Shown: piece by piece, positions 7,208 through 9,986 of the stretch
Numbering within the stretch: the first letter of the stretch is position 1
Layout of the letters: each line of letters starts with the position of its first letter
Source of the DNA: an uncultured Clostridia bacterium
Lineage (GTDB): Bacteria > Bacillota > Clostridia > TANB77 > CAG-508
Length of the DNA stretch: 37,999 nucleotides
Assembly (NCBI GenBank): GCA_947627935.1
Contig: CANQXY010000012.1
Coordinates: 1 to 37,999, forward strand
Direction: 5' to 3'
Made by a program: the position numbers and the translations under genes
The notes under the pieces: generated by a model
What the model was told of the DNA's origin: nothing
What the model saw: the letters and a program-made list of their open reading frames with translations, nothing else
Database searches by the model: none

Positions 7208-7567
7208 ATGGTAAAAAAGACAGATAGAAAAACTGAAAGAACTAGAAGACATATAAGAGTTAGAACTAAAGTATCTGGAACAGCAGAAAGACCAAGATTA
7301 TGTGTATATAGAAGTAATACAAATATATATGCACAAGTTATAGATGATGTAGCTGGAAATACTTTAGTAAGTGCTTCTACATTAGATAAATCAGTTAAAA
7401 CAAAAAAATCTAATAAAGAAGCAGCAAAAGAAGTTGGAGCTTTAATTGCTAAAAAAGCATTAGAAAAAAATATCAAAACAGTAGTATTTGACCGTGGCGG
7501 ATATATTTATCATGGTATAATAAAAGAATTAGCAGAAGCTGCAAGAGAAGGTGGCTTAGAGTTTTAA
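7208..7567 (+). CDS. rplR: 50S ribosomal protein L18
   Basis: L18 (119 aa) binds 5S rRNA with L5. The basic N-terminus ([20 protein letters not shown]) is followed by [17 protein letters not shown] and the C-terminal [28 protein letters not shown] lies before the ATG after a 47-base gap that shows nothing else clear. Confidence 0.97.
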
Positions 7568-7590
7568 AAAAGGAGGGAAAACAAAAACCT

Positions 7591-8082
7591 ATGGAAGAAA
7601 ATAATACATTAGAGTTAAAAGAAAAAGTAGTTGCTATTAACAGAGTAGCTAAAGTTGTTAAAGGTGGTAGAAATTTTAGATTTAGCGCTGTAGTAGTTGT
7701 TGGAGATGAAAATGGACACGTAGGTGTTGGAAATGGTAAAGCAGCTGAAGTTCCAGATGCAATCAAAAAAGCAATACAAGAAGCTAAAAAGAATTTATTA
7801 GAAGTTCCAATTGTAGGAACAACTGTACCACATGAATTTGTAGGAAAATTTGGTAGTGCAAATGTTATGCTTAAACCTGCAACAGTAGGTACTGGAGTTA
7901 TAGCAGGAGGAAGTGTTAGACCAGTATTAGAGCTTGCTGGATATAAAGATATAAGAACAAAAGTTATTGGAACAAACAATCCAAGAAACGTTGTTTATGC
8001 TACAATTGAAGGACTAAAAGCAATGCAAACAGTAGAACAAGTAGCTAAAAAAAGAGGTAAAAAAGTAGAAGAAATTATTTAA
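7591..8082 (+). CDS. rpsE: 30S ribosomal protein S5
   Basis: S5 (163 aa) helps decoding accuracy and forms part of the mRNA entry. It shows [18 protein letters not shown], the [17 protein letters not shown] motif, and [13 protein letters not shown] of the C-terminal domain. The ATG at 7591 lies 13-14 bases after AGGAGGG, a long spacing, but no better start exists. Next in this operon one expects rpmD, which is absent; a folded gap follows instead. Confidence 0.97.
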
Positions 8083-8087
8083 TTGTG

Positions 8088-8197
8088 GTTGGAGGTTTGA
8101 AGTTGGTAATTTATAACTTTAAATACTCTATACCAAAGATATACAAATGGAGTTGAAAGATGAAATAGTAATAAATTACTAATCTCAAGCTTCCAAC
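8088..8197 (+). promoter_or_regulatory. long near-perfect stem between rpsE and rplO, in the rpmD slot
   Basis: Bases 8088-8114 can pair with 8171-8197 over 27 positions. There are 26 pairs (four of them G-U) and one A-C mismatch at 8101/8184. Three more pairs (8116-8118 with 8167-8169) continue inward, and the loop can hold a small hairpin (ACTC 8125-8128 with GAGT 8150-8153). The stem starts six bases after the rpsE stop and ends about 15 bases before the rplO Shine-Dalgarno. No T-run follows, so it is not a classic terminator. It could be an RNase III site, a regulatory leader for rplO-secY, or a palindromic insertion element. Function is unknown. Confidence 0.75.
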
Positions 8198-8231
8198 AGC
8201 CAACATTAAATTAAGGAGGTGCAACGCATAA

Positions 8232-8666
8232 ATGAAAATAGACGAATTAAAACCATCTGTGAAAAAGACTGAAAGAACTAGAAGAGGTAGAGGTATAGGA
8301 TCAGGATTAGGAAAAACTTCTGGAAAAGGACATAAAGGTCAAAAAGCAAGAAGCGGTGGTGGAGTAAGAAGAGGATTTGAAGGTGGTCAAACACCATTAT
8401 ATAGAAGATTACCAAAAAGAGGATTTACAAATATTCATGCTAAAGATTATACAGAAGTAACTTTAACAATGTTAAATAAAAGTAAAAGTACTGATGTTAC
8501 AGCTGAAACTCTTTTAGAAGAAGGAATAATCGGTAAAATAAATGATGGAATAGTTGTTTTAGCTACAGGAAATTTAGAGAAAAAACTAAATGTTAAAGCA
8601 AAAAGATTTACTGCATCAGCTAAAGAAAAAATTGAAGCTTTAGGCGGAAAGGCTGAGGTGATTTAA
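8232..8666 (+). CDS. rplO: 50S ribosomal protein L15
   Basis: L15 (144 aa) is a late-assembly 23S rRNA-binding protein. The glycine-rich N-terminus ([20 protein letters not shown]) and [15 protein letters not shown] are diagnostic. The ATG at 8232 follows AAGGAGG (8213-8219) at about 12 bases. Its final codons carry GAGGTGA, which serves as Shine-Dalgarno for secY; the secY TTG follows the stop directly. Confidence 0.97.
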
Positions 8667-9986
8667 TTGTTTAAAACAATAAAAAATGCAATAAAGACAC
8701 CAGAAGTTAGAAAGAAACTTTTTTATACATTAATATTAATAATAATATTTAGACTTGGATGTTATATAACTGTACCAGGGGTTGATATAATAGAATTAAA
8801 TACAGCGATGTCATCAAGTAATGGAATTAGTGGATTAATAGACTTAATATCAGGAGGAGCTTTTTCTAGGTTTTCTGTATTTGCTATGTCTATTACTCCA
8901 TACATTACAGCTTCAATTGTTATACAACTATTAGGAATGGTTATACCTTCATTAGAAAAATTAACTAAAGAAGGTGGAGAAGAAGGTAGAAAGAAAATTA
9001 ATAAATACACAAAAATGTTAACAATAGTGTTATCATTAGTTGAATCTATAGGAATTTATTTATCTTATAGTTCATCTGGTATATTTGTTAATCCTGGATT
9101 ATTAACAGGAGCTTTAGTAGTAATAGGACTTGTTGCTGGTACTTCAATACTTATGTGGCTTGGAGAACAAATAACAGCAAAAGGAATTGGAAATGGAATA
9201 TCTATTATAATCTTTATAGGTATCATTTCAGGTTTACCATCTTTAGTGCCAACTGTATGGAATCTTATTGTTACAGAAAATGGATTTAGTACAACAGGTC
9301 TATTATTAGGATTAGGATTAATAATAGGTGCTATTATATTAGTTGCAGGTGTTGTGTTTGTACAACAAGCTGAAAGAAAAGTACCTGTACAATATTCTAA
9401 AAAAGTAGTTGGAAGAAAAATGGTAGGAGCACAAAATACACATATACCATTAAAACTTGCTATGGCAGGTGTTATGCCAATAATATTTGCATCATCATTT
9501 ATGACATTTCCAGCTATAATTATACAAATATTTGTTAAAGATATAGCAACACAAACAGGATTCTTAGCAGGACTATATAAATTTTCAATAGCTACATCTT
9601 CATCACAAGTAGGTATTGGATATTCAATAGCAAATGCTATAGTATACTTATTACTAATTATGGCATTTACATATTTCTATACATATGCAACATTTAATCC
9701 AGCAGAAGTATCTAATAATATAAAGAAAAATGGTGGATTCATTCCAGGAATAAGATCTGGAAAACCAACAACAGATTATTTATCATCAATAATATCAAAA
9801 TTAACACTTTTTGGTGGATTCTTCTTAGCAGTAATTGCAATATTACCAATGCTTTTAAGATTTACATCATTAAATGTGGCATTTGGTGGTACATCAATAT
9901 TAATTGTCGTTGGTGTTGCGTTAGAAACAGTACAACAATTAGAATCTCAATTAGTAATGAGACATTACAAGGGATTTTTAGAATAA
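8667..9986 (+). CDS. secY: preprotein translocase subunit SecY
   Basis: SecY (439 aa) is the channel of the Sec translocon in the cytoplasmic membrane. It starts with TTG at 8667, immediately after the rplO stop. Ten hydrophobic segments are apparent, with the conserved GGAFSRFSVFAMSITPYITASI region, given here as its parts SVFAMSITPYI and ASIVIQLL. The QQAERKVPVQYSKK loop and RSGKPTTDYL also match. Length is normal. Co-transcription with ribosomal genes couples secretion capacity to growth. Confidence 0.97.
   Translation: MFKTIKNAIKTPEVRKKLFYTLILIIIFRLGCYITVPGVDIIELNTAMSSSNGISGLIDLISGGAFSRFSVFAMSITPYITASIVIQLLGMVIPSLEKLTKEGGEEGRKKINKYTKMLTIVLSLVESIGIYLSYSSSGIFVNPGLLTGALVVIGLVAGTSILMWLGEQITAKGIGNGISIIIFIGIISGLPSLVPTVWNLIVTENGFSTTGLLLGLGLIIGAIILVAGVVFVQQAERKVPVQYSKKVVGRKMVGAQNTHIPLKLAMAGVMPIIFASSFMTFPAIIIQIFVKDIATQTGFLAGLYKFSIATSSSQVGIGYSIANAIVYLLLIMAFTYFYTYATFNPAEVSNNIKKNGGFIPGIRSGKPTTDYLSSIISKLTLFGGFFLAVIAILPMLLRFTSLNVAFGGTSILIVVGVALETVQQLESQLVMRHYKGFLE

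Follow-up and report, generated by a model that had tools for sequence, protein, structure and literature searches.

In the window, by which we mean the whole 37,999-nt stretch of an uncultured Clostridia genome that was analysed, the genes for ribosomal proteins S5 (rpsE) and L15 (rplO) are separated by a 149-nt spacer that is filled by a hairpin, whose stem starts 5 nt past the rpsE stop codon (Table 1). The sequence-only reading had described a stem of 8088-8114 with 8171-8197 in which 26 of 27 positions pair, four of them as G-U, and these coordinates and counts are confirmed: 22 pairs are Watson-Crick, four are G-U, and the one mismatch is A-C. Further, the outer stem extends four positions inward with one more mismatch, resulting in 31 positions and two mismatches in total. 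The interval 8080-8231, folded as mRNA, reached -39.6 kcal/mol (z -5.05), with 0 of 200 shuffles equally stable, and the hairpin is more stable on the mRNA strand than on the antisense strand (-37.9 versus -24.8 kcal/mol). This strand difference, and the lack of any terminator-like site in 8083-8231, where the GC-rich stem followed by a T-run of an intrinsic terminator does not occur, uphold the earlier preference for an RNA element over a terminator. A stable hairpin without a U-tract, flanked by co-directional genes as here, is the configuration of the malE-malF type. An Rfam scan of 7500-8800 returned no match above the gathering score.

To rank the stem, we used an ungapped score (+1 per pair, -2 per mismatch) over 436 kb of the same genome, made up of the window and 20 stretches. 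The window stem, at 25, was the top ungapped stem, followed by a runner-up at 22, and 21 stems scored at least 19; the best stem per dinucleotide-shuffled window scored 16-20 (12 shuffled windows).

The usual place of the L30 gene (rpmD) is between those of S5 and L15. A search for PF00327 (L30) gave no match in this genome, reflecting either loss or an assembly gap, and the same search was positive in 13 of 14 controls. By eye, no frame in the gap resembles L30, and none of the 42 rpsE-rplO gaps of at least 30 nt in the loci compared below holds an ORF of at least 40 aa. That the spacer is a scar left by the loss of rpmD is therefore a guess. A second rpsE, 61% identical, occurs in the same genome bin (G000:C44:1841-2302), possibly on a contaminating contig, given the stated contamination of 3.34%.

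Table 1. Features of the rpsE-rplO region of the window, and three example copies of the R1 hairpin (47-copy alignment A2)
Feature	Position	Strand	Remarks
rpsE (ribosomal protein S5)	7591..8082	+	ORF; stop codon TAA at 8080-8082; gene by which relatives were located
5' arm	8088..8114	+	heptads GTTGGAG, GTTTGAA, GTTGGTA, ATTTAT
Loop region	8115..8170	+	weak inner hairpin; outer stem runs four positions in
3' arm	8171..8197	+	reverse complement GTTGGAA, GCTTGAG, ATTAGTA, ATTTAT
Extra heptad	8198..8204	+	outside the stem; reverse complement GTTGGCT
rplO Shine-Dalgarno	8213..8221	+	AAGGAGGTG; mean pairing probability 0.43; not part of the stem
rplO (ribosomal protein L15)	8232..8666	+	ORF; aligned to relatives
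R1 copy	L026:952-1074	+	
R1 copy	L273:2496-2619	+	
R1 copy	L257:4633-4757	-	

Heptad repeats in the arms and in other genomes

The two arms are, as read here, degenerate tandem seven-base repeats set as an inverted pair. When shifted by seven positions, the left arm matched itself at 16 of 24 positions, which none of 5000 dinucleotide shuffles equalled, and the right arm did so at 17 of 31, which five of 5000 equalled. The pairing of the window arms with each other scored 25, versus a mean of 13.0 when the 3' side was taken from one of 38 other heptad arms, none of which (0 of 38) paired as well. Across all 39 heptad arms, own pairing averaged 14.6 and swapped pairing 13.6, such that most arms are not specific to their partners. 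A 20-mer heptad pattern had a single match in the whole genome, the window hairpin itself, while a looser pattern found two sites in the 436 kb, the window included. The other site (C2:10846) lies 2 nt past a stop codon and upstream of a gene that we take to be FtsK-like.

A counterpart came from a distant congener (G203, rpsE 83% identical), whose rpsE-rplO gap also carries a hairpin built of heptads, beginning from the rpsE stop; in that genome, a related 19-mer pattern occurred at 17 places versus one for the reversed control. The 20-mer pattern was expanded in six of 210 genus genomes, with counts on both strands against the reversed control of 174 and 70 (G019), 29 and 2 (G087), 25 and 4 (G098), 22 and 7 (G203), 21 and 6 (G066), and 19 and 0 (G129); the raised control in some of these, such as G019, is expected because the motif is periodic. 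In a draw of 398 genomes from the phylum, 151 had at least one match and one genome (G566) had 274 versus 22 in the control, but another (G533) had 17 versus 23, so that not every match in this draw is a heptad element.

The heptad stretches that we examined were mostly selected around pattern matches. Among the first set of these, 33 of 34 heptad clusters were located outside ORFs of at least 60 aa. Several appear to lie in ribosomal operons or next to translation genes: from the ends of flanking proteins, we take the sites to be upstream of rpsN in a ribosomal operon (G016), between rpsH and rplF (G098 and G203), and between rpsG and fusA (G198).

For placement, each purine-rich arm was assigned to the gene edge that it faced, among 41 arms of which two inside ORFs were excluded and with the window's own arm entered at 5 nt. 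Of the 25 arms that faced a stop within the genus, 20 began no more than 15 nt from the codon, versus one of the 14 that faced a start (Fisher p 2e-5), a test that assumes independent arms, which related copies are not, with four places contributing both arms, and a comparison that is somewhat unfair because a Shine-Dalgarno sequence needs room before the start codon. Outside the genus, the same held for 0 of 12 stop-facing arms in G566 and 0 of 1 in G514. Mismatch types in the heptad stems were 54 G-U versus 22 A-C for stop-facing stems (10 stems) and 16 versus 14 for the others (six stems; Fisher p 0.11), a contrast that hints at selection on the mRNA but is not clear-cut and is confounded by the motif filter, which itself favours G-U; the window stem alone has four versus one.

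A link to Y1 (RAYT) transposases was considered and rejected. PF01797 had 0 matches in the genome of the window and was uneven among congeners, being found in seven of 12 genomes searched and in four of the six heptad-expanded ones, and no heptads were found around the Y1 genes of the seven loci scanned (of eight, all but L222).

The spacer in relatives and searches for copies

We compared the rpsE-rplO gap in 52 loci: that of the window, 50 from congeners, and one from a genome in a different family. Its length ranged from 13 to 283 nt (median 66.5 nt), and its content was unlike that of the window in all 51 related loci. From the rplF-rplR, rplR-rpsE, and rpsE-rplO boundaries of these loci, we obtained 117 gaps of at least 30 nt. 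The window gap matched one of the other 116 by blastn (E 1e-4), over the last 25 nt in the Shine-Dalgarno region only, and the heptad motif was absent from all 116. Stems scoring at least 16 were contained in 17 of the 117 gaps, such that the rarity of long stems inside ribosomal operons, as assumed by the sequence-only reading, does not apply to this genus.

Copies of the hairpin were sought more widely. The sequence-only reading had suggested looking for further copies in the same genome, where blastn with the gap found the element itself and no second full copy. A permissive blastn search of 194 genus genomes, in which few candidates were scored per genome, had hits in 179 of them; no listed hit spanned the full hairpin, and we read these as AT-rich chance matches. 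With 8060-8240 as the query (E <=1e-5) against 210 genus genomes, seven other genomes matched, five at the start region of rplO only, G203 at both gap ends, and G186 over one short stretch, with no full second hairpin copy among the matches listed. An orthologous copy was thus not found in the relatives searched. An exact-pattern scan matched three stretches from unrelated organisms in a genome contig collection and nothing in a viral contig collection, and blastn against plasmids and phages gave no match.

The gaps of the congeners contain repeats of their own. In the rpsE-rplO gaps of L011, L013, L014, L019, L021, and L025 (genomes G007, G004, G027, G001, G025, and G008, respectively), we observed a repeat family that begins TCACAAGGGGAGGG and ends GTGTCCCCTGAC, sometimes in two copies per gap, with related stretches in rplR-rpsE gaps. 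The rplR-rpsE gaps of four congeners (L005, L086, L087, and L090) share a long stem of at least 26-27 positions, whose arms are themselves palindromic (ACAAAATTCATAAAGTGAATTTTGT). The rpsE-rplO gap of G024 (L024) holds another hairpin unit, beginning GGCAGAAGGAGAAAATTAAGGATTACAAAATGC, in three tandem copies.

The R1 hairpin family

A second hairpin family, which we call R1, is a rod-like hairpin of 123 nt located in the rplF-rplR gap of many congeners and unrelated to the window hairpin. In a first alignment of 15 copies, 22 of 41 pairs had changes on both sides. The covariance model matched in 26 of 55 genomes searched, four of the 26 being from another family, with up to 14 matches per genome, a maximum that partly reflects one palindrome read on both strands. 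The genome of the window had no covariance-model match, and the window itself is without R1.

A larger alignment (A2) holds 47 copies, drawn from 10 loci of best matches and 20 stretches hand-picked from the match listing. Of its cells, 93.4% were paired, versus 74.0% in shuffled sequences and 33-44% with slid partners, and both sides had changed in 30 of the 41 pairs, which indicates strong covariation. The copies sit closely behind genes: 41 of 47 start no more than 10 nt from the end of the upstream ORF, versus 214 of 4700 random positions (4.6%) in the same loci. The upstream genes were rplF (nine copies), rpsL (eight), rpsG (seven), fusA (five), rpsN (four), rplK (two), and rplW, rplN, infB, pyrH, pta, and pgk (one each), with six copies lacking an assigned gene; Pfam confirms S12, S7, EF-G, L11, L14, IF-2, an amino-acid-kinase-family protein, and Pta among their products. 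Translation genes precede 38 of the 47 copies, a share that pertains to a chosen sample.

The mismatches in R1, counted on the mRNA strand over the 47 copies, comprise 70 A-C and 16 G-U, and this excess of A-C over G-U speaks against selection on R1 at the level of mRNA. R1 could thus reflect a process acting on DNA, or an antisense RNA. Identity among copies was 0.716 for the same gap in different genomes, 0.694 for different gaps in the same genome, and 0.668 where both differed, and thus shows weak structure by gap or genome. An Rfam scan of six congener loci returned nothing above the gathering score and nothing that matched R1; one match below that score, to CRISPR-DR7 at L005:3016-3064, falls outside R1. 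Literature searched by wording and by the repeat letters yielded neither a GTTRGAR-type heptad hairpin nor R1, and other wordings or papers may differ. Given the lack of an Rfam match in the loci scanned and of any report in the literature searched, R1 may be new.

Possible roles and origins of the hairpin

By our reading of these gaps, the spacer is one of a class defined by position in this genus, in which hairpins of unrelated families recur just past stop codons, frequently within translation operons. R1 and the window hairpin both lie in spacers and begin at a stop codon, R1 mostly in translation operons, while the two are unrelated in sequence and shape, and R1 is the one that covaries strongly. 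For the window hairpin, the role that we favour, by analogy and tentatively, is that of a 3'-protective mRNA structure like the REP element of malE-malF, which would stabilise the upstream rpsE message. Specifically, the rpsE-rplO spacer is predicted to be cut by an endonuclease, after which the stem would halt 3'-to-5' exonucleases, and the blocked decay would leave the upstream ribosomal-protein message stabilised. The stem lies right behind the rpsE stop and leaves the rplO Shine-Dalgarno sequence outside, as would suit a function in the upstream message. Stable hairpins without a U-tract are described in E. coli as marking the 3' termini of operon segments that are stabilised, with malE-malF being well studied (PMC5927463), and in the cip-cel operon of Ruminiclostridium cellulolyticum intergenic stem-loops are reported to set mRNA cleavage and stability (PMC10311766). 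It is the position, together with these precedents, that leads us to favour a 3'-protective hairpin, with a neutral palindrome as the main rival. As to the origin of the arms, they may have arisen by the spread or the inverted duplication of a heptad repeat. The sequence itself shows the stem, its heptad arms, their place behind the stop, the lack of a full copy in the relatives searched, and the recurrence of this repeat type behind other stop codons of the genus, whereas cutting, protection, and the origin of the arms are inferences from it.

A neutral palindrome at the level of DNA would be such a repeat, tolerated after its spread or copying into the spacer because the stop of rpsE and the ribosome-binding site of rplO are both left unharmed, the ground behind a stop codon being the safest landing place. 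This is a real possibility, consistent with the complete turnover of gap content among relatives, the expansion of heptads in few genomes, the lack of arm-specific pairing in most heptad arms, and R1 mismatches that do not favour pairing in mRNA. Against it, the window arms match far better than chance or swapped arms, the docking within a few nucleotides of the stop is tighter than tolerance in the gap requires, and the fold of the mRNA strand surpasses that of the antisense strand. The stem might also be a site at which RNase III or another endonuclease separates the rpsE mRNA from that of rplO-secY, which we consider improbable. RNase III accepts stems of about 27 positions, and the near-perfect stem has a suitable length. 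The cip-cel stem-loops, further, are described as cleavage signals (PMC10311766). Cleavage is compatible with a protective hairpin, and the two are hard to separate from sequence alone.

The sequence-only reading had also proposed a regulator of rplO-secY, which would act in cis through ribosomal-protein feedback or as a switch. The hairpin does stand directly before rplO, whose Shine-Dalgarno sequence is partly paired in the fold (Table 1), but that sequence is left outside the stem, and Rfam gave no match above the gathering score. A site-specific regulator is unsupported because the gap content differs in the 51 related loci, where ribosomal-protein autoregulatory RNAs would be conserved at the same gene boundary, and we regard it as highly improbable. 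The further suggestion of the sequence-only reading, a palindromic, MITE-like insertion, named the correct kind of element, since the arms are inverted and of a heptad type that is dispersed through some congeners. A strict MITE, or a REPIN mobilised by a transposase, is scarcely credible: it is unsupported because a second full copy is absent from the genome and from the congener matches listed, and the missing Y1 match in the genome of the window and the lack of heptads at the seven Y1 loci scanned weigh against it as well.

Ribosomal-protein genes share one transcript, and how the message of each cistron is tuned is an old question. A broader and more doubtful extension of the 3'-protective reading is that stop-docked hairpins, drawn from several unrelated families, serve this genus as caps for the cistrons in translation operons, the position being kept while the sequence is swapped freely. 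Heptad palindromes, the covarying R1 rod, and others might then be interchangeable mRNA end-caps by which the amount of each ribosomal protein supplied would be set. Should cistrons indeed be capped by such hairpins of differing origin, then it is position and not sequence that is conserved, which would explain how such elements escape family searches. The idea is directly testable by the mapping of RNA ends, and R1, being covarying, dispersed, and without an Rfam match in the loci scanned, gives this question much more statistical leverage than the lone hairpin of the window.

Among known systems, REP/REPIN elements, of which the malE-malF REP would be the functional analogue, resemble the window hairpin as extragenic palindromes without a U-tract that lie in operon spacers behind stop codons (PMC5927463, PMC3733652, PMC3116915, PMC8266576). 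The window hairpin differs from them in that it is not present in high copy and its genome has no Y1 match; further, REP/REPIN sequences are described as having a tag, GTAG or CGTC, at one terminus (PMC3733652), and by eye neither occurs in 8083-8204 on either strand. The cip-cel stem-loops likewise lie in operon spacers, but they have been mapped experimentally, whereas the window hairpin is known from its sequence, and the available description of them includes no heptads (PMC10311766).

Of the published elements, those most like the window hairpin are heptameric repeats from Xanthomonas and Nostoc (GGGAATC and GGGGA(T/C)T), which are reported to be mostly intergenic and near the upstream ORF; those downstream of an ORF are mostly no more than 50 bp from the stop, on the coding strand, with some overlapping the stop itself (PMC4692102). 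The window hairpin shares with them tandem units of seven bases, an intergenic location near a stop on the coding strand, and inverted pairing, but its unit is GTYDGAR-like, its two arms correspond heptad for heptad, the organisms are different, and its genome holds few copies where the published repeats are many (PMC4692102). It also differs in G-quadruplex potential, which the window heptads lack because there is no GGG tract, with neither GGG nor CCC seen by eye in 8083-8204. In Xanthomonas, many of the heptamers form inverted pairs, 70 in Xcc and 75 in Xac, that could fold as stem-loops (PMC4692102).
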